Shown here in pieces: positions 3,572 through 28,747 of a stretch of 41,840 nucleotides of DNA. Position 1 is the stretch's first letter. Every line of letters begins with the position of its first letter. The translations under genes were made by a program, and so were the position numbers. The notes beneath the pieces were generated by a model. The model was given only the letters and a program-made list of their open reading frames with translations, had not been told where the DNA came from and ran no database searches. The DNA is from Verrucomicrobiales bacterium (GTDB taxonomy: Bacteria; Verrucomicrobiota; Verrucomicrobiia; Verrucomicrobiales; V1-33). Where the stretch lies: the NCBI GenBank assembly GCA_018003315.1, contig JAGNEJ010000037.1:1-41840 (forward strand), written 5' to 3'.

Positions 3572-4996
3572 TCAAAACACCAGCCAGCCCAGCAGGCCGA
3601 TGCAGAGCACGCAGGCGGCATCCAACAGGAGCCCGCAGCGGATCATGTCGCGCTGCGGGACTTTTCCGGTGCCGAACACCAAGGCATTGGGCGGAGTCGC
3701 CACCGGCATCATGAATCCACAGGAGGCCGCCAGCCCCACGGGAACCACCAGCTTTTCGGGAGGCAATCCCATTTCCAGCGCGACCTTGGAAAACACCGGC
3801 ACCATCAGCGTGGCCACTGCGGTGTTGCTGGCAAATTCACTGAGCAGCGTCACCGCCGCTGCCAGTCCCAGCAGCAGCAGCACCAGCGGCCAGCCCCCGG
3901 TCATCACCGTAAATCCGCGTGCCAAAAACACGCTGGCGCCGGTTTCCTCCAGCAGCCTCCCCAACAACAGTCCGCCGCCAAAGAGCAGCAGCACGCCCCA
4001 TTCCACGCTCCGCTCCAGTTCCTTCCACGGCAGCAGCCGCAGCAGGCAAACCGCCGCCACACCGCAGAGGGCGACCACCGTGTCAAAGTTTTTGGGCTTC
4101 CCCAGCAGGGCCGCCAGCGGAGCGCTGAACAGCCACGCCAGAATGACTCCCGCAAAGACCAGCAGTGTCAGGATCCGCGGAAGCGTCCACCGCCATGCGG
4201 ATGTTTCCGCGGGAATGCGCCAGGAAAACGAGGGGCGGAAAAAGCCCAGGAGGATTGCCAGAAGCGCCGGCAGGAACAAGGCAAATGCCGGCAGTCCGAA
4301 GCGGAACCAGTCATTGAATTCAAGCTGCAAGGCCTGCGCCACCACGCCGTTGGGCGGCGTGCCCACCAGACTGCCCACGCCGCCCACGCTGGCCGCGAAG
4401 GCAATTCCCAGCAGCAAAAAGACCTCGGCCCGGCGACGTTCCGCAGCGGGAAGCTCCAGTTTCGCTGCCATGCCCAGCGCCAGTGGCAGCATCATGGCGG
4501 CGGTCGCGGTATTGCTGATCCACATGGAAATAACTGCCGTGGCCAGGATCATCAGCAGAGCTGCCACGGTAAAGCGTCCATGCGCAGCGGCAATGAGCCT
4601 TCCAGCCAGCCAGCGGTCCAGCCCGTGATGCCGCAGTGTTCCGGCGATGACGAAGCCTCCGAAAAACAGGAACAGCACGGGATCAGCAAACGGAGCCAGC
4701 GCCGACTCCACCCTGCTCCCCGTAAAAAAAACCGCCATCAGCGGAATCAGCAACGCCGTGGCGCTCACCGGAAGCGCCTCGGTCAGCCAGAGAAATGCCG
4801 TGACGCTCAGGATCGCCAGCCCGTCGCGCACCCGGTCTCCATTCAGCCCGCCGGTTGCCAGTGTTTCCTCATGCAACGGAAGGAGCCGGCGCACGGCAAA
4901 AAACAATCCCGCGGCTGCCAGCAGCATTGCCGGTCCAAACCAACGGACGTGGGGACGGACTTCGTTTTCGTCAGGATCGGGAACTGAAAGCGGCAT
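3572..4996 (-). CDS. DASS/SLC13-family sodium-coupled anion symporter
   Basis: About 474 residues with many hydrophobic segments. Both SLC13 hairpin motifs are present: ISNTATAAMMLPLALGMAAK paired with VGTPPNGVVAQ in the first half, and ASNTAVATLMVPV paired with MPVATPPNALVFGTG in the second. These SNT and TPPN signatures bind sodium and a carboxylate or sulfate in the inner membrane. Substrates in the family are dicarboxylates, citrate or sulfate; which one applies here cannot be read from the sequence. The start at 4996 gives MPLSVPDPDENEVRP before the first TM; ATG at 5062 would add 22 residues. Neither has a convincing Shine-Dalgarno. The gene precedes the orphan binding protein on the same strand, suggesting a two-gene transcript. 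Confidence 0.92.
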   Translation of the reverse strand: MPLSVPDPDENEVRPHVRWFGPAMLLAAAGLFFAVRRLLPLHEETLATGGLNGDRVRDGLAILSVTAFLWLTEALPVSATALLIPLMAVFFTGSRVESALAPFADPVLFLFFGGFVIAGTLRHHGLDRWLAGRLIAAAHGRFTVAALLMILATAVISMWISNTATAAMMLPLALGMAAKLELPAAERRRAEVFLLLGIAFAASVGGVGSLVGTPPNGVVAQALQLEFNDWFRFGLPAFALFLPALLAILLGFFRPSFSWRIPAETSAWRWTLPRILTLLVFAGVILAWLFSAPLAALLGKPKNFDTVVALCGVAAVCLLRLLPWKELERSVEWGVLLLFGGGLLLGRLLEETGASVFLARGFTVMTGGWPLVLLLLGLAAAVTLLSEFASNTAVATLMVPVFSKVALEMGLPPEKLVVPVGLAASCGFMMPVATPPNALVFGTGKVPQRDMIRCGLLLDAACVLCIGLLGWLVF

Positions 4997-20800: not shown

Positions 20801-21454
20801 TCAAGGGAGGCTTGCACTCATTTCCACCGTGTGGTCGGCAATCAGCTCCGCTTCGCCTCGGTCGTGAGTCACCAAGATCACCGGCAGCTCCAGCAGGCGC
20901 AGCGTCGCGCACAAATCCTGACGCAAGGATTCCCGAAGGCTGGAATCAAGCGCAGAGAGCGGCTCGTCCAGGAGCAGAAGGCGCGGACGACGCACCAGGG
21001 ATCGCGCCAGGGCCACGCGCTGCTGCTGGCCTCCGGAGAGCTGGCGGGGCAGCTTGCGGGCATGATCGGTGAGGCCGTAGCGTTCGAGGATTTCCTCCAC
21101 GCGCTCACGGCGTGCGAACTTGGGCAGATCGTGCAGACCGAATTCGATGTTGCGTTGGATGCTCAGATGCGGAAAAAGCGCATAATCTTGAAACACGAAC
21201 CCGATGTCGCGCTGCTGGGGAGCAAGGCTGATCCCTGATTCGGCATTCGCCCAGATTTCGGAGCCAAATCGAATGGAGCCGCTGTCGATCCGATCCAGGC
21301 CTGCGATGCAGCGCAGCACGGTTGTCTTGCCGCAGCCGGAAGGCCCGAAGAGCACGGTCACGCGGTGCGTGTGCACAGGCATCTCCAGCGCACAGTGGAT
21401 CAGGCCGCTGCCGGGATGCCGCTTGGTGAAGTGCGCGGTTAACGAATCGGCCAT
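20801..21454 (-). CDS. modC: Molybdate/tungstate ABC transporter ATPase, short form
   Basis: 217 residues. ATP-binding parts are complete: Walker A GPSGCGKTT (37-45), Q-loop FVFQDYALFPHLS (~88-98), signature LSGGQQQR (139-146), Walker B RLLLLDEPLSALD (158-170) and the H-loop ILVTHDRGEA. Usual ModC proteins have ~350 residues with a C-terminal MOP domain that binds molybdate; this one ends right after the ATPase core. The gene starts inside the end of modB (16-base overlap), so it is translationally coupled, and it is the last gene of the mod operon. The pairing with ModA and ModB defines the substrate class; the ATPase alone would be ambiguous. Confidence 0.9.
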   Translation of the reverse strand: MADSLTAHFTKRHPGSGLIHCALEMPVHTHRVTVLFGPSGCGKTTVLRCIAGLDRIDSGSIRFGSEIWANAESGISLAPQQRDIGFVFQDYALFPHLSIQRNIEFGLHDLPKFARRERVEEILERYGLTDHARKLPRQLSGGQQQRVALARSLVRRPRLLLLDEPLSALDSSLRESLRQDLCATLRLLELPVILVTHDRGEAELIADHTVEMSASLP

Positions 21455-22113
21455 GTCTGGGTAAAGCGGCGTTGCAGTGCGTAGGTGATGGAGAGCACGA
21501 GGAAGGAGAACACCAGCATGGCGAGAGCGGTCTGGTGGGCAGCGGCATAGTCGAGTGCCTGCACATGATCGTAAATGGACACTGCAACGGTGCGCGTGGT
21601 GCCGGGCAGATTTCCCCCCACCATGAGGACCACGCCGAATTCACCCATCGTGTGGGCAAAGGTGAGCACGATGCCTGCCAACACTCCGGGCCAGGCCAGT
21701 GGCAGCACCACCCGCAGAAATGTTTCCAGCGGACGCACACCGAGGCACCATGAGGCTTCGATGAATCGTCGATCCACCGTGGCAAAAGCCCCCATGAAAG
21801 GCTGCACGGCGAACGGCAGACTGTAAATCACCGAAGCAACGAGCAGCCCCTGAAATGAAAAGGGCAATCGCGTGCCGAAGACCGCCTCGTAGGCCTGCCC
21901 CAGCGGGCTGTGCGGCCCGATGGCCATCAGCACATAGAAACCGAGCACCGTCGGTGGCAGCACCAGCGGCAAAGCCACCACGGCCTCGATTAAACAACGT
22001 GCCCGCGACCGGGTGTTCGACAGCCACCAGGCCAGCGGAAGGCCAAGCACAACCAGAATGAGCGTGGTGCAGGCGGAAAGCCGCAGGCTGAGACTGATGG
22101 CCGACCAGTCCAT
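21439..22113 (-). CDS. modB: Molybdate ABC transporter permease
   Basis: 224 residues, the normal ModB size, with about five membrane helices. The start at 22113 (MDWSAISLSLRLSACTTL) matches the typical ModB N-terminus. The family signatures are present: ALPLVLPPTVLGFYVL, and the EAA loop around FIEASWCLGVRPLETFLRVVLPLAWPGVLAG, which docks on the ATPase, followed by FAHTMGEFGVVLMVGGN. It forms the inner-membrane channel for molybdate (or tungstate) delivered by ModA. Four bases separate it from modA, and it overlaps modC by 16 bases, so the operon is tightly coupled. Confidence 0.95.
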   Translation of the reverse strand: MDWSAISLSLRLSACTTLILVVLGLPLAWWLSNTRSRARCLIEAVVALPLVLPPTVLGFYVLMAIGPHSPLGQAYEAVFGTRLPFSFQGLLVASVIYSLPFAVQPFMGAFATVDRRFIEASWCLGVRPLETFLRVVLPLAWPGVLAGIVLTFAHTMGEFGVVLMVGGNLPGTTRTVAVSIYDHVQALDYAAAHQTALAMLVFSFLVLSITYALQRRFTQTWPIR

Positions 22114-22117
22114 GCGA

Positions 22118-22909
22118 TTATTTTCCCGGAAGTTTGAACCCGTGACGCTGCAGAATCTGCGCAGCCGCAACATCGCTGAGAATGAATTCGCGGAAAGAAC
22201 GTGCAGCGGAAGCATGGGCCGTGTGCTTGACGATGATCAACCCTTGCTCAATGGCGGGGAAAGTGTCCGCGGGAACCTGCCAGTAGCGCCCTTTGCCTCT
22301 GAGCTTGTCAGAGACGGCATGAGACAATGCCAGAAAGCCAATGTCCGCCGCGCCGCTTTCCACAAACTGCGCCGTCTGCGCAATGTTCTCGCCGAGCACC
22401 AGCTTTGTTGCCACCGTCTCGTGCACATGGAGTGCTTTCATCGCGGCAACGGCTGCCGACCCATACGGCGCAAGTTTGGGATTGGCGATCGCGATCTTTT
22501 TCACCTGCGGCTCAGTGAGCGCCAGAATGCCCAGCTTCGCCACGTCGATCCCCGAGGCATTCGTCACCCAGAGCACCAGTCCTCCGACCGCATAGCGGGA
22601 CACTTCGCCATCAAGCGCGAGTCCGGCTTGCGCCAGCCTTTCGGGGTAGTCCATGTCGGCGGCGAGGAAGAGATCAAATGGCGCATGGTTCTGAATCTGC
22701 GCAAAGAAATTGCCGGAGGACCCATAGGTTGCCTGCACGCTCACCTCGGGATGCGCCGCGCTGTATGCATGAATCAGATCTTCCATGGAAAACTGAACGC
22801 TTGAGGCGACTGCGAACGACAATGAGGCCCCGGTGGGTCTGATCGCAGGCTTGCAGCCGCTGAGCCAGGCGATTCCCATCAGGAGAAGAAAATTCAATCG
22901 TAGCATCAT
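22118..22909 (-). CDS. modA: Molybdate-binding periplasmic lipoprotein
   Basis: 263 residues. The signal peptide ends in lipobox WLSGC (Cys19), so this ModA is probably membrane-tethered rather than free, although it belongs to a Gram-negative-type genome. The ModA pattern is clear: LSFAVASSVQFSMEDLIHAY, VQATYGSSGNFFAQIQNHAPFDLFLAADMDYPERL, KIAIANPKLAPYGSAAVAAM and the C-terminal SGAADIGFLALSHAV. The Ser residues of the ASS and GSSGN loops are the expected oxyanion contacts. Molybdate versus tungstate selectivity cannot be decided from sequence. It starts 9 bases after the regulator gene's stop. ATGs at 22909 and 22906 are both possible. Confidence 0.95.
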   Translation of the reverse strand: MMLRLNFLLLMGIAWLSGCKPAIRPTGASLSFAVASSVQFSMEDLIHAYSAAHPEVSVQATYGSSGNFFAQIQNHAPFDLFLAADMDYPERLAQAGLALDGEVSRYAVGGLVLWVTNASGIDVAKLGILALTEPQVKKIAIANPKLAPYGSAAVAAMKALHVHETVATKLVLGENIAQTAQFVESGAADIGFLALSHAVSDKLRGKGRYWQVPADTFPAIEQGLIIVKHTAHASAARSFREFILSDVAAAQILQRHGFKLPGK

Positions 22910-22918
22910 GCGGCAGGG

Positions 22919-23980
22919 TTAAATGGAAAGCAGTTCGCCCGTATGGCCGGCGCTGTAGCCTGGCAGTTCATCGATCAGGCGGCGATGCGCCCTGCTGCGC
23001 AGCAGGCGGATGAGCGCCTGGACGCGGGGATCGCGCTCCATCGCTGCCGGGAAGCAGAGATCCAGCGACTCCCTGCGCAATGGCAGGAAGCGCAAGCCAG
23101 CGTTCTCCGCACAGAGACGCACGCACACGCCCGCCTCAGCCCAACCGCCACGCACGGCCTCGGCGACTGCCTGATGGCTCAGCACCACGCGCTTCGATGC
23201 GCGGGATTTTTCCAGCAGCCCATCCAGGCATTCCCGCGCGGCAGAGCCAGGCTCGCGCATCGCCCACTGCCGCACTTGCTTCACGCAGGCCGTCACAGTG
23301 CGCAGCCTATCATCGGAACGAAGCACGATGCCCTCCTGCCAGTCTGCGTTCCGCAACAGGCGGTAGCCGCCTCCGAGCCGTTTTCGGGCTGTTATCGCAT
23401 TTTCATCGGGATTGGTTTCGGTGGACCGATGCAGCGCCGCCACATGCACCGCGCCTTGTTTCAAAAGCTCCAGCGCGAATCCACCCCCACGCGAGAAAGC
23501 CAACAGCCGGAACCCGGAGGCTGCGCCATACTCCGCAGCAAGCAGTCCCGCCGCCGGATCACAACCAGCGAGCACCAGCGTTTGCGACGCATCCCACTTG
23601 CTGCAGCCATGCAGCACACCGCCCCGGCAGATGCCGTCATGCGCCCACGAGCAGCCTGGCAGAGCCTCCACGGGATACAGCCGCCTTGTCCCTCCCACTT
23701 CCGCCTCCCAGTAGCAGCCAGACTCTCCGGGCGGCTCCCAGGCCCACGCCGCAGTCTGCTTTCCCTTGCGACCGCCACTGGCAAAGAGCTCTTCCACGCT
23801 GCACTCCAGTGCATTGGCTACCGCAAGCGCTGCCGTCACCGACGGCGTAAGCCGCCCTGCTTCGATCGCGCTGATCGAGCTGCGCGGGATGCCGGATCTG
23901 GCTGCCAGATCTTCCTGTGACCAGCCGCGGTCGGTTCTCCTGACGGCAACAGGGTGTGATAATGCAGTGCCTTTCGACAT
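22919..23980 (-). CDS. XRE-family regulator with C-terminal PBP-like domain, likely molybdate-responsive
   Basis: 353 residues. Residues ~10-66 form an XRE helix-turn-helix (VRRTDRGWSQEDLAARSGIP, RSSISAIEAGRLTPS, VTAALAVANALECSVEELF). From ~85 on is a periplasmic-binding-protein-like domain of the kind fused to HTHs in molybdate regulators (PF12727 type), with TLVLAGCDPAAGLLAAEYG, VHVAALHRSTE, RLLRNADWQEGIVLR and QAVAEAVRGGWAEAGVCVRL. The start at 23980 places the HTH directly at the N-terminus. It is the first gene of the mod operon and probably represses its own promoter, replacing ModE; oxyanion binding in the PBP domain would be the signal. That it senses molybdate is an inference from context and domain fusion. 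Confidence 0.88.
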   Translation of the reverse strand: MSKGTALSHPVAVRRTDRGWSQEDLAARSGIPRSSISAIEAGRLTPSVTAALAVANALECSVEELFASGGRKGKQTAAWAWEPPGESGCYWEAEVGGTRRLYPVEALPGCSWAHDGICRGGVLHGCSKWDASQTLVLAGCDPAAGLLAAEYGAASGFRLLAFSRGGGFALELLKQGAVHVAALHRSTETNPDENAITARKRLGGGYRLLRNADWQEGIVLRSDDRLRTVTACVKQVRQWAMREPGSAARECLDGLLEKSRASKRVVLSHQAVAEAVRGGWAEAGVCVRLCAENAGLRFLPLRRESLDLCFPAAMERDPRVQALIRLLRSRAHRRLIDELPGYSAGHTGELLSI

Positions 23981-23993
23981 AAACCTGTCGAAA
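23972..23993. promoter_or_regulatory. Inverted-repeat operator overlapping the -10 region and start codon of the mod regulator
   Basis: TTTCGACA at 23972-23979 and TGTCGAAA at 23986-23993 are perfect 8-bp inverted repeats with a 6-base spacer. The left arm overlaps the start codon (23978-23980) and the right arm overlaps the -10 box. A dimeric HTH protein bound here would block both transcription and initiation, which suggests autorepression by the XRE-PBP regulator. Confidence 0.75.
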
Positions 23994-24018
23994 TATGGCA
24001 GGATACAATCAATGTCAA
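23990..24018 (-). promoter_or_regulatory. Promoter of the mod operon
   Basis: On the minus strand, consensus -35 TTGACA (24013-24018) is followed by a 17-base spacer and TATTTC as -10 (23990-23995). Only 9 bases separate the -10 box from the ATG, so the transcript should be leaderless or nearly so. Confidence 0.7.
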
Positions 24019-24144: not shown

Positions 24145-25452
24145 ATGAAACCATCCTCATTTCCCCGCTGGACGCTGGCCCTTTTGCTGCTCGTCATCAC
24201 GCCGTTGGCGGCTTCCGGCGGAGATCTGCGTGCGGCGGCGGTGAAGATCGACATCACGCCGGACACGCCACAACCGATGATTGGTTATGCCCACCGGATG
24301 TCCAACGGAGTCCACACGCCGCTTTTTCACCGAATCCTGGTTCTCGATGATGGCCAAACGAAGACAGTGATTGCCTCCACCGAGGTTTGCCTCGTCTCGC
24401 CTGCGGAATATGACCGCACCGCCGCACTCGTTGAAAAGGCCCACGGCATCCCGCCACTGCACTTTTTCTGGACCGTCACCCACACCCATTCGGCACCGCA
24501 AATTGGACCGCATGGCATGACCACCGTGTACCTGCCCAGCCGCACCACCACCAGCGACTACGACCGGGCCTACAACGAAAAATCCATCCGCCAGCTCGTC
24601 GATGGCATCGGCGCGGCCATTGCGAAACTGGAACCCGCACGGCTCGGAGTTGGTTCCGGCAGTTCCGATGCCAACATCAACCGCCGCGAACGCGCGGCCA
24701 ACGGCAGCATCGTGCTCGGCAACAACCCGCAAGGCGCGGTGGACCGCCATATCGGCGTGTTGAAGCTGGTGAAACGCACCGACAACGCACCGCTCGCTGC
24801 ACTGGCAAACTACGCCATTCACGCAACCGTACTGGGCCCCAAAAGCCTGCTCATCAGTGGGGATGCCACCGGCATCGCCGCTGCCCATGTAGAGGAAAAG
24901 ATTGGCGTGCCCATGCTCTTTGTGAACGGTGCGGCGGGAAACATCGCACCGATCTACAGCGTCTGCCCCACACCGGCTGAGGGCCGCATTGACGAATTCA
25001 AATCCCGCCTCGGAGATCCGATCCTCACGGCGCTGGGAGCTGTGGTTGACTTTCGCGATTCCTTGTCTGTTCAAAGCTGGGAAGCCGTCTTTGAAACGCC
25101 GCGCAAAACCGGACTCGGCTGGAACGACGACCTCGCCGCCTACACGCGCACCGGTGCTGACGGTCTCCCCCTCGTGCGGATGCCCTGCCGCTTTCTCCGC
25201 CTCGACAAAGACATCCTCGCCTGGTCCGCTCCCGCGGAAATTTTCTGTGAATATGCACTCGCCGCCCGTGCATCCTCACCCTATGCCCACACCTTCTTCT
25301 TTGGTTATACCAACGGTTGGTTCGGATACCTCCCCACCGCTGAAGGTTTCGCCGAAGGCGGCTACGAGACGACGGTGACTCCTTTCTCCCCGGCGGTGGA
25401 TGCCCCGTTTCGGGAGTTTGTCCGCAAACAAATCCGCGCCCATTCCCCGTAG
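24145..25452 (+). CDS. Secreted neutral/alkaline ceramidase-like protein
   Basis: 435 residues with signal peptide (RWTLALLLLVITPLAASGG). The mature protein begins LRAAAVKIDITPD and continues with the zinc-site motif VTHTHSAPQ (H113 and H115) and a second histidine in NYAIHATVLGP, then FVNGAAGNIAPIY, the pattern of the N-terminal catalytic domain of neutral ceramidases. It is much shorter than true ceramidases (~650 or more) because the C-terminal domain is missing. Such short members are frequent in planctomycete and verrucomicrobial genomes and their substrates are unknown; a zinc amidase or esterase acting on lipids or glycans is a guess. Convergent with the GH5-like gene and divergent from the mod operon. 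Confidence 0.88.
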   Translation: MKPSSFPRWTLALLLLVITPLAASGGDLRAAAVKIDITPDTPQPMIGYAHRMSNGVHTPLFHRILVLDDGQTKTVIASTEVCLVSPAEYDRTAALVEKAHGIPPLHFFWTVTHTHSAPQIGPHGMTTVYLPSRTTTSDYDRAYNEKSIRQLVDGIGAAIAKLEPARLGVGSGSSDANINRRERAANGSIVLGNNPQGAVDRHIGVLKLVKRTDNAPLAALANYAIHATVLGPKSLLISGDATGIAAAHVEEKIGVPMLFVNGAAGNIAPIYSVCPTPAEGRIDEFKSRLGDPILTALGAVVDFRDSLSVQSWEAVFETPRKTGLGWNDDLAAYTRTGADGLPLVRMPCRFLRLDKDILAWSAPAEIFCEYALAARASSPYAHTFFFGYTNGWFGYLPTAEGFAEGGYETTVTPFSPAVDAPFREFVRKQIRAHSP

Positions 25453-26975: not shown

Positions 26976-27286
26976 CGCGTGAGTTTAGGGAGGAGGTGAA
27001 GGACTGACAGGATTGCCATGGCCGTGTGGCAGCCGACGCGGGCCAACCGCCGGACTTGAAGTGAAACCGGCCCTGCGAATTCGGTATCTGGAAATGCCTG
27101 CCAAAATCACGGAATGATGCTAGCCGCCCCATGCCTGACCGCAAGCGGGTAATCATGAGGGGGGAATTTTGATTTGGTGACCGGCGAACCATGGATCAAA
27201 ATCCAAACCGACCACCGCAGCAGCAGCAGCACCGCAGCCAATGCGGCGAAATGTTTTCCAACCGCCCACAACGCGACGTGCCAGCC
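26976..27286. other. Divergent intergenic region with a CAG triplet run
   Basis: 311 bases between divergent GH5-like and second ceramidase-like genes. It must contain promoters for both, but no clear hexamer pair was found. A run of CAG/GCA triplets lies at about 27218-27240. A longer version of the downstream gene starting at 27191 would be low-complexity (many Gln and His), so the ATG at 27287 is preferred. Confidence 0.55.
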
Positions 27287-28747
27287 ATGAAATGCATCTT
27301 AACCTGCCTCCTCCTCGCCCTGAGGCTTCCACTCCACGGCGGCATCCTTGCCGGTACCGCGAGGGTGGACATTACGGACCGCACCGGGCCAGTGAATGAC
27401 CCGTGCTTCGCCAAGGCGCTCGTGTTGCAGAGTGGCGCAACCACCGCCGTGCTCATCACCGTGGACGCGGTGGCCATCGGCGGCATCGGGAGCATCGGAA
27501 ACGATTTCCTCCCTGGCGTCCGGAAACAACTCGGCGGTCTCGCTGACGCTGTCCTCGTCAATGCCAGTCACTGTCACGGCATCGTGCGCCAAGACCTGGA
27601 GCCGCTCGTCGTGCAAGCCGTGAAGGACGCGACGAAGAATCTCGTTCCAGTCAATGTGAGCGCCGGCAGCGGCAGCGAGGCCCGCATCAGCGAAAATCGA
27701 CGCATGTTTCTCAAGGACGGCACGCAACTCGACATGCGCCGCGCCTACGCCATGCCGCGGGACGAGGACGTGATCAGCACCGGACCCATCGATCCGCAGA
27801 TCGGCCTGTTGAAACTCGGGCGTGCTGACGGCACACCACTTGCGATCGTCTATCAATTTGCCTGCCATCCCATCATGAACCCGCCGAGCAAGGGTTGTTC
27901 CGCCGACTATCCCGGCATTGCCTCCAAAGTCATCGAAGATGCCACCGGTGCCATGGCCTTCTTTGTGCAAGGCTGCGGCGGAGACATCAATCCCTTGCAT
28001 TACAAGGAAGTCAGCCGCCCCGCCGACGCCGAACCGCTTGGCACCATGCTCGGTGCAAGCGTGCTGGCTGCGCTGCGCCGACTGGAGCCGCAACACGACG
28101 ACACGCTGCAAATCAGCCGCGAAATCCTGCCACTGCCCCGCGCTGCTGATTTTGAGAATCGCATCGCACACGTCGAAACAGAGCTGAAATCCCTCGTGGC
28201 GTCGCTAAAACCAACGAACATCAATTTCAAAACGTTCCTGCCGCTGTTGATCCAGCACAGACTCTTCCCGGAAATGCCCTCGCACTACGCCCAGGGCTAT
28301 CTCGACAACCCAAAGCCACTCCAGCAACTGGATGCCGACAACAAAGCGCAGGTCGAAGCCTACCTCGGCAATCTGGCCAGCATGGAGCAGATCACCCGGC
28401 TCAATGCCAATCTCGCCCTGCTGAAAAAACACCTGACCGACACCAGAGCTGCCGGCAGCCCGACGGTGGATGCAGAAGTGTGCGGCCTGCGCGTGGGCAA
28501 ATTCAAACTGGTGACCTTTCCAGGTGAAATCACCGTGCAGATCGGCCTGAACATCAAAAAAGCAGCGCAGGATGCCAACGCGCACGTTTCCGGCTACACC
28601 AACGGCTACCTCTGGTACACCGCCACCGAGCAGCAGCGCCGCAATCCGGGTTATGCCCAGGAAGACTGCGACGTGATCGTGGCGCCGGAATGGCAGAAAC
28701 TGTTTGAGGCAAAAGCGCTGGAAGTTCTGCGGCAGCTCGCACGCTGA
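27287..28747 (+). CDS. Second secreted ceramidase-like protein
   Basis: 486 residues. Signal-like start MKCILTCLLLALRLPLHGG. The same fold as the gene at 24145 but distant: ARVDITDRTGPVNDP, VLVNASHCHGIV (H95 and H97, where ceramidases have HTH), QFACHPIMNPPSKG with the next histidine, and FVQGCGGDINPL. The domain continues to VTFPGEITVQIGLNIK and SGYTNGYLWYTATEQQRRN, the conserved glycine/tyrosine end of the family. A neutral-ceramidase-type zinc hydrolase domain is expected, substrate unknown. It ends 9 bases from the convergent XylR-type regulator. Two paralogues close together, each near a GH5-like gene, suggest co-use on one polymer. Confidence 0.87.
   Translation: MKCILTCLLLALRLPLHGGILAGTARVDITDRTGPVNDPCFAKALVLQSGATTAVLITVDAVAIGGIGSIGNDFLPGVRKQLGGLADAVLVNASHCHGIVRQDLEPLVVQAVKDATKNLVPVNVSAGSGSEARISENRRMFLKDGTQLDMRRAYAMPRDEDVISTGPIDPQIGLLKLGRADGTPLAIVYQFACHPIMNPPSKGCSADYPGIASKVIEDATGAMAFFVQGCGGDINPLHYKEVSRPADAEPLGTMLGASVLAALRRLEPQHDDTLQISREILPLPRAADFENRIAHVETELKSLVASLKPTNINFKTFLPLLIQHRLFPEMPSHYAQGYLDNPKPLQQLDADNKAQVEAYLGNLASMEQITRLNANLALLKKHLTDTRAAGSPTVDAEVCGLRVGKFKLVTFPGEITVQIGLNIKKAAQDANAHVSGYTNGYLWYTATEQQRRNPGYAQEDCDVIVAPEWQKLFEAKALEVLRQLAR

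Follow-up and report, generated by a model that had tools for sequence, protein, structure and literature searches.

A tandem operator-like site that includes the start codon of an XRE-PBP regulator gene next to molybdate transport genes in Verrucomicrobiales

The inverted repeat at the start of the XRE/PBP-like regulator gene in the window (the whole stretch of 41,840 nucleotides of Verrucomicrobiales DNA that was analysed) is, to judge by its conservation among orthologues, very probably the switch by which the regulator turns off itself and the transporter genes. We suggest that the protein is an autorepressor acting on tandem operators, O1 and O2, at its own reg-modABC promoter, with molybdate or tungstate as the probable co-repressor, and we give this reading a probability of roughly three in four. 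An earlier note on this DNA had described a single repeat. That repeat is indeed an operator-like dyad, but it appears to be one of two tandem operators, and O1 had been missed. The coordinates are collected in Table 1.

Table 1. Features of the regulator promoter, the adjoining genes and the additional operator copies (window positions unless a locus handle is given; positions in brackets count from the start codon)
Feature	Position	Strand	Remarks
Inverted repeat described earlier	23972-23993	(-)	arms TTTCGACA (23993-23986) and TGTCGAAA (23979-23972), 6-base spacer
-35 element TTGACA	24013..24018 (-38 to -33)	(-)	TTGAC at -38 in 12/12 orthologues (+/-1; one-base shift in L017 and L036)
-10 element TATTTC	23990..23995 (-15 to -10)	(-)	weak in window, position conserved
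Candidate operator O1 TGATTGTATCCTGCCA	23996..24011 (-31 to -16)	(-)	21 bp upstream of O2, in promoter spacer
Candidate operator O2 CGACAGGTTTATGTCG	23975..23990 (-10 to +6)	(-)	within 22-bp inverted repeat; ATG included
Regulator gene, XRE HTH_3 + PBP_like (PF12727), 353 aa	22919..23980	(-)	Pfam
modA, molybdate-binding protein	22118..22909	(-)	TIGR01256 179.8 bits, cut-off 62.5; 9 bases past regulator
modB, molybdate permease	21439..22215	(-)	TIGR02141 238 bits, cut-off 182.6; listed ORF start overlaps modA
modC-like ABC ATPase, 217 aa	20801..21454	(-)	PF00005; TIGR02142 below its cut-off
Copies at TonB-receptor gene	L014 2856-2892; L015 1854-1891; L033 1398-1413		
Copies at probable secreted-protein ORF	L031 515-551; L032 599-614		L031: pair abuts ATG of ORF

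The promoter spacing proposed in the earlier note is borne out, with TTGACA, 17 bases, TATTTC, nine bases and the ATG at 23980-23978, and the two 8-bp arms are both perfect, with 6 bases between them. The repeat had also been said to cover the -10 box and the start codon. It overlaps both, but the arms leave out two of the six -10 bases and also the A of the ATG, which falls in the repeat spacer; only the TG lies within an arm. The window's TATTTC agrees with TATAAT at three of six positions and lacks the final T, which explains why a sigma-70 consensus scan called no promoter at the window's regulator start. The genome of the window has no second exact copy of the repeat. Taken alone, however, it is only mildly unusual and constitutes weak evidence, because inverted repeats of at least 8 bp were found in 35 of 1000 shuffles of the 301-nt region (3.5%) and in 11 of the 139 300-nt tiles of the window (8%).

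In Pfam, the N-terminal HTH_3 domain of the regulator scores 54.2 bits against a gathering score of 23, and the C-terminal PF12727 domain scores 116.2 bits against 27. The HTH resembles C.AhdI by sequence and fold. The matches of the PBP fold include tungstate-binding proteins (TupA), with a low model quality (mean pLDDT of 69.6). Together with the gene context, the PBP fold makes molybdate or tungstate the likely effector. We infer that the regulator and the mod genes form one transcript with the regulator first. The order reg-modA-modB is retained in 7 of 12 orthologues, window included, and no modABC adjoins the regulator in the sequence available for L030-L033. The window's modC-like ATPase has no TOBE/molbindin match, so the transporter seems to lack this domain. 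On the other strand of the window, the ORF at 24145-25452 (+) looks related to neutral ceramidases by Pfam PF04734, and a second neutral-ceramidase-like ORF at 27191-28747 (+) was recognized by eye only. Our literature searches found no specific description of the XRE-PBP group and no described operator for it.

The evidence for O2 comes from orthologues of the regulator, which were taken from genome collections; after the removal of duplicates, 12 distinct sequences were left, window included. Their proteins are 44-100% identical, and those with a known family represent four families of the order. When the upstream regions were aligned at the start codon, the operator consensus TGACAGCATCATGTCA was found in a fixed register from -10 to +6, with the ATG in its right half. 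The most constant bases are T at -10 (11 sequences), G at -9 (12), C at -7 (11), A at -6 (11), G at -5 (11), and C at +5 (12). In the -10 element, A at -14 is present in 9/12, A at -11 in 8/12, and T at -10 in 11/12, and upstream of -40 the mean pairwise identity is only 29%. Because in-frame stops lie at about -21 in L030 and -15 in L017, the ATG must be the true start in these two, and the conserved bases before it must be noncoding. The dyad at -10/+6 with a spacer of 6 has 50 complementary pairs of a possible 60, the maximum over all offsets and spacers of 2 to 11 (mean of 15.2 and sd of 4.9 for that spacing). The symmetry is preserved by two-sided changes in the window (C-10/G+6) and in L033 (G-8/C+4). 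The earlier note had proposed a search for the same arms upstream of orthologues. The register is kept in all 11 others, but conservation is confined to a core of 5 bp per arm, TGRCA-N6-TGYCA; the outer T/A bases of the 8-bp arms belong to the window genome alone.

When a weight matrix was derived from the O2 sites of the remaining orthologues, O2 ranked first in 11 of 12 sequences and second in L033, where a distal copy outscores it; only one of the 12 has an O2 that scores lower than the window's. In a search of 387 genomes with the pattern TTGAC-N23-operator, every match with up to 2 mismatches lay at this regulator gene, and those with 3 mismatches were mostly chance by appearance. The 16-bp consensus alone proved useless as a genome pattern, being swamped by coding-like matches, for example the peptide D-S-I-M.

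The same matrix reveals a probable second operator in the promoter spacer. O1 ranks second or third of 200 positions in 8 of the 12 orthologues (second in the window). Only one offset has a higher mean score than -31, and 0 of 5000 spacer shuffles reached the mean at -31, although shuffle counts are not independent probabilities because the 12 sequences are related. In L036 the copy at -32 is weak and a second, at -21, is stronger, and L030 and L031 have a copy at -21 that has a half-site in common with O2. At L017 2970-3006, a 17-bp perfect inverted repeat extends across the promoter and start codon, because O2 recurs upstream as its exact reverse complement. The spacing of 21 bp between O1 and O2 would place both sites on the same helix face. 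A tandem pattern with up to 3 mismatches matched at regulators, at the neighbor gene of L031 and at one likely chance position. It had no match in the window's genome, because the window O1 is too diverged.

Across the 12 orthologues there is no Shine-Dalgarno sequence, and the -10 element stands about nine bases from the ATG. With the -10 element ending nine bases before the ATG, the start of transcription is predicted at about -5 to +1, so the regulator mRNA is likely leaderless or nearly so. The missing Shine-Dalgarno sequence fits a leaderless mRNA but is weak evidence for it, because such sequences are scarce in some Verrucomicrobia (PMC10783764) and the window modA also lacks one; the absence is thus not specific to the regulator.

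We propose that the regulator, encoded directly downstream, binds the tandem operators over its own reg-modABC promoter as two dimers lying two helical turns apart on one DNA face. One dimer would occupy O1, between the -35 and -10 elements, and the other would occupy O2 and cover the end of the -10 element, the transcription start and the start codon. Since O1 fills the spacer and O2 covers the start, their occupancy should exclude RNA polymerase from the reg-modA-modB-modC promoter, resulting in negative autoregulation. The PBP-like domain would sense cytoplasmic molybdate or tungstate, most simply as a co-repressor, which would give negative feedback on uptake. One ATG would then be both the start codon of a leaderless or nearly leaderless mRNA and part of an operator. 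Self-control at the promoter and start site, as put forward in the earlier note, is in agreement with the conserved dyad and the conserved -35 and -10 positions. The accompanying idea that initiation is blocked at the same site would be true for transcription only, because a DNA-bound repressor blocks polymerase, not ribosomes.

The repeat could also be read as an RNA hairpin, an 8-bp mRNA stem that would restrain translation by enclosing the UG of the start codon. Although the 22-nt repeat folds at -8.7 kcal/mol (z of -5.7), this hairpin requires a transcript start upstream of -13, contrary to the conserved promoter position. Moreover, only the window genome has the long stem, the orthologues keeping three to five of the five core pairs; their mismatches are of the G-A type, as suits a protein site; and the motif recurs as a tandem copy and upstream of other genes, off the start codon. 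We consider a hairpin very improbable. It is likewise improbable that the conserved bases represent only promoter, discriminator and start-codon context, with an incidental dyad and no repressor. TTGAC, the -10 position and the ATG do explain part of the conservation, but the GNCAG-AT between the -10 element and the ATG, plus C+5, exceeds the needs of a discriminator, and this context does not account for a matching copy in the spacer and others upstream of different genes.

If the sites are operators, the questions that follow are which protein binds them and with what effect. Binding of the O1/O2 site by another XRE protein of the cell is the least probable alternative, given that the motif accompanies the regulator gene across genera and that the promoter-linked pattern, at 0-2 mismatches over the 387 genomes, points to this gene only. 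More can be said for a true operator at which the protein activates, or activates at low level and represses at high level, or from which the ligand induces, in that XRE C proteins with tandem sites both activate and repress (PMC4824078) and the regulator's HTH is of the C.AhdI kind. We nevertheless regard it as unlikely: both sites lie inside the promoter and O2 covers the start site, as would suit repression, and there is no conserved site upstream of -35 at the regulator gene. Autorepression through O1 and O2 is the reading we prefer.

Further copies of the operator were found at genes near the regulator, beginning 16-47 bp upstream of a TonB-receptor gene in three genomes and lying upstream of a probable secreted-protein ORF in two; the background density of sites that score at least 13 is 0.064 per kb. 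Most of these copies are away from a start codon, which distinguishes the operator from start-codon conservation. Those at the TonB-receptor gene suggest an outer-membrane step for the same oxyanion. No homolog of the TonB receptor was found in the window's genome at E<=1e-40. Operator copies at other genes were seen only near the regulator, and none beyond reg-modABC is known in the window genome. A high matrix match at window position 4484 was rejected as a coding chance match inside a transporter ORF, which by eye we take to be SLC13-like. The probable secreted-protein ORF of L032 is weakly like CBM96, below the cut-off.

In L037 and L038, from another family of the order, the site pairs are also 21 bp apart and are shifted relative to the ATG. 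In this family (L038 1423-3969, G160:C13:239344) the genes run in the order regulator, alginate-export-type outer-membrane protein, modA. The motif is absent from eight more distant XRE-PBP homologs in the phylum. The regulators that have the operator share a conserved HTH recognition segment, which differs in these distant homologs. No convincing operator was found upstream of distant modA-like genes in related genomes. Several related genomes have a second modA-like family (L111-L118), encoded by ORFs of about 510-520 aa, again with no convincing operator. We give even odds to a broader proposal, namely a defined operator TGRCAGSATCATGYCA, in tandem at 21 bp, and a small regulon for an XRE-PBP group of oxyanion regulators in Verrucomicrobiales; the start codon would itself belong to the recognition site, and molybdate uptake would be coregulated with a TonB-dependent receptor of the outer membrane. 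The regulator group thereby gains a testable DNA site and gene set, and there is a handle on a TonB receptor possibly tied to molybdate or tungstate. It is also a seemingly clear case, in several genera, of one ATG being both a protein recognition site and a start codon.

The design itself is already known from AcuR, the C proteins and lambda cI, whereas the operator, its tandem form and its small gene set appear to be new for this regulator group. ModE and TunR are molybdate/tungstate regulators. As in these systems, a cytoplasmic oxyanion sensor would govern molybdate uptake, but their architecture is different, and the present regulator, an XRE HTH fused to PF12727, is not a ModE, as Pfam and NCBIfam show only the XRE-type HTH and PBP_like. 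Lambda cI and Tn1721 tetR are autoregulated at operators over the promoter, with unrelated ligand control and cargo genes. Both, cI from PRM, are cited as repressor genes with leaderless mRNAs in PMC3017554. The closest precedent is AcuR of Rhodobacter sphaeroides, where the transcript of the acuR-acuI-dddL operon begins exactly at the AUG by 5' RACE and operator mutants are constitutive (PMC3017554). There, too, the regulator is the first gene, an 8-bp inverted repeat with a 6-bp spacer lies over the promoter, and a Shine-Dalgarno sequence is lacking. AcuR differs in being a TetR-family protein that responds to acrylate in DMSP catabolism, and its reported operator is a single inverted repeat instead of a tandem pair of which O2 contains the start codon. 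The C (controller) proteins of restriction-modification systems, such as C.Csp231I and C.AhdI, are autoregulated via two tandem inverted repeats, and their transcripts are described as leaderless (PMC4824078). They share with our regulator the XRE-type HTH, matched to C.AhdI by sequence and fold, and the tandem inverted repeats. However, they are small, have no ligand domain, and activate as well as repress, whereas the present system has O1 in the promoter spacer and a transporter as its cargo; a protein of 353 aa with a PBP_like domain, linked to modABC, is not a C protein. We suggest that the tandem site is a good new example of this known design.
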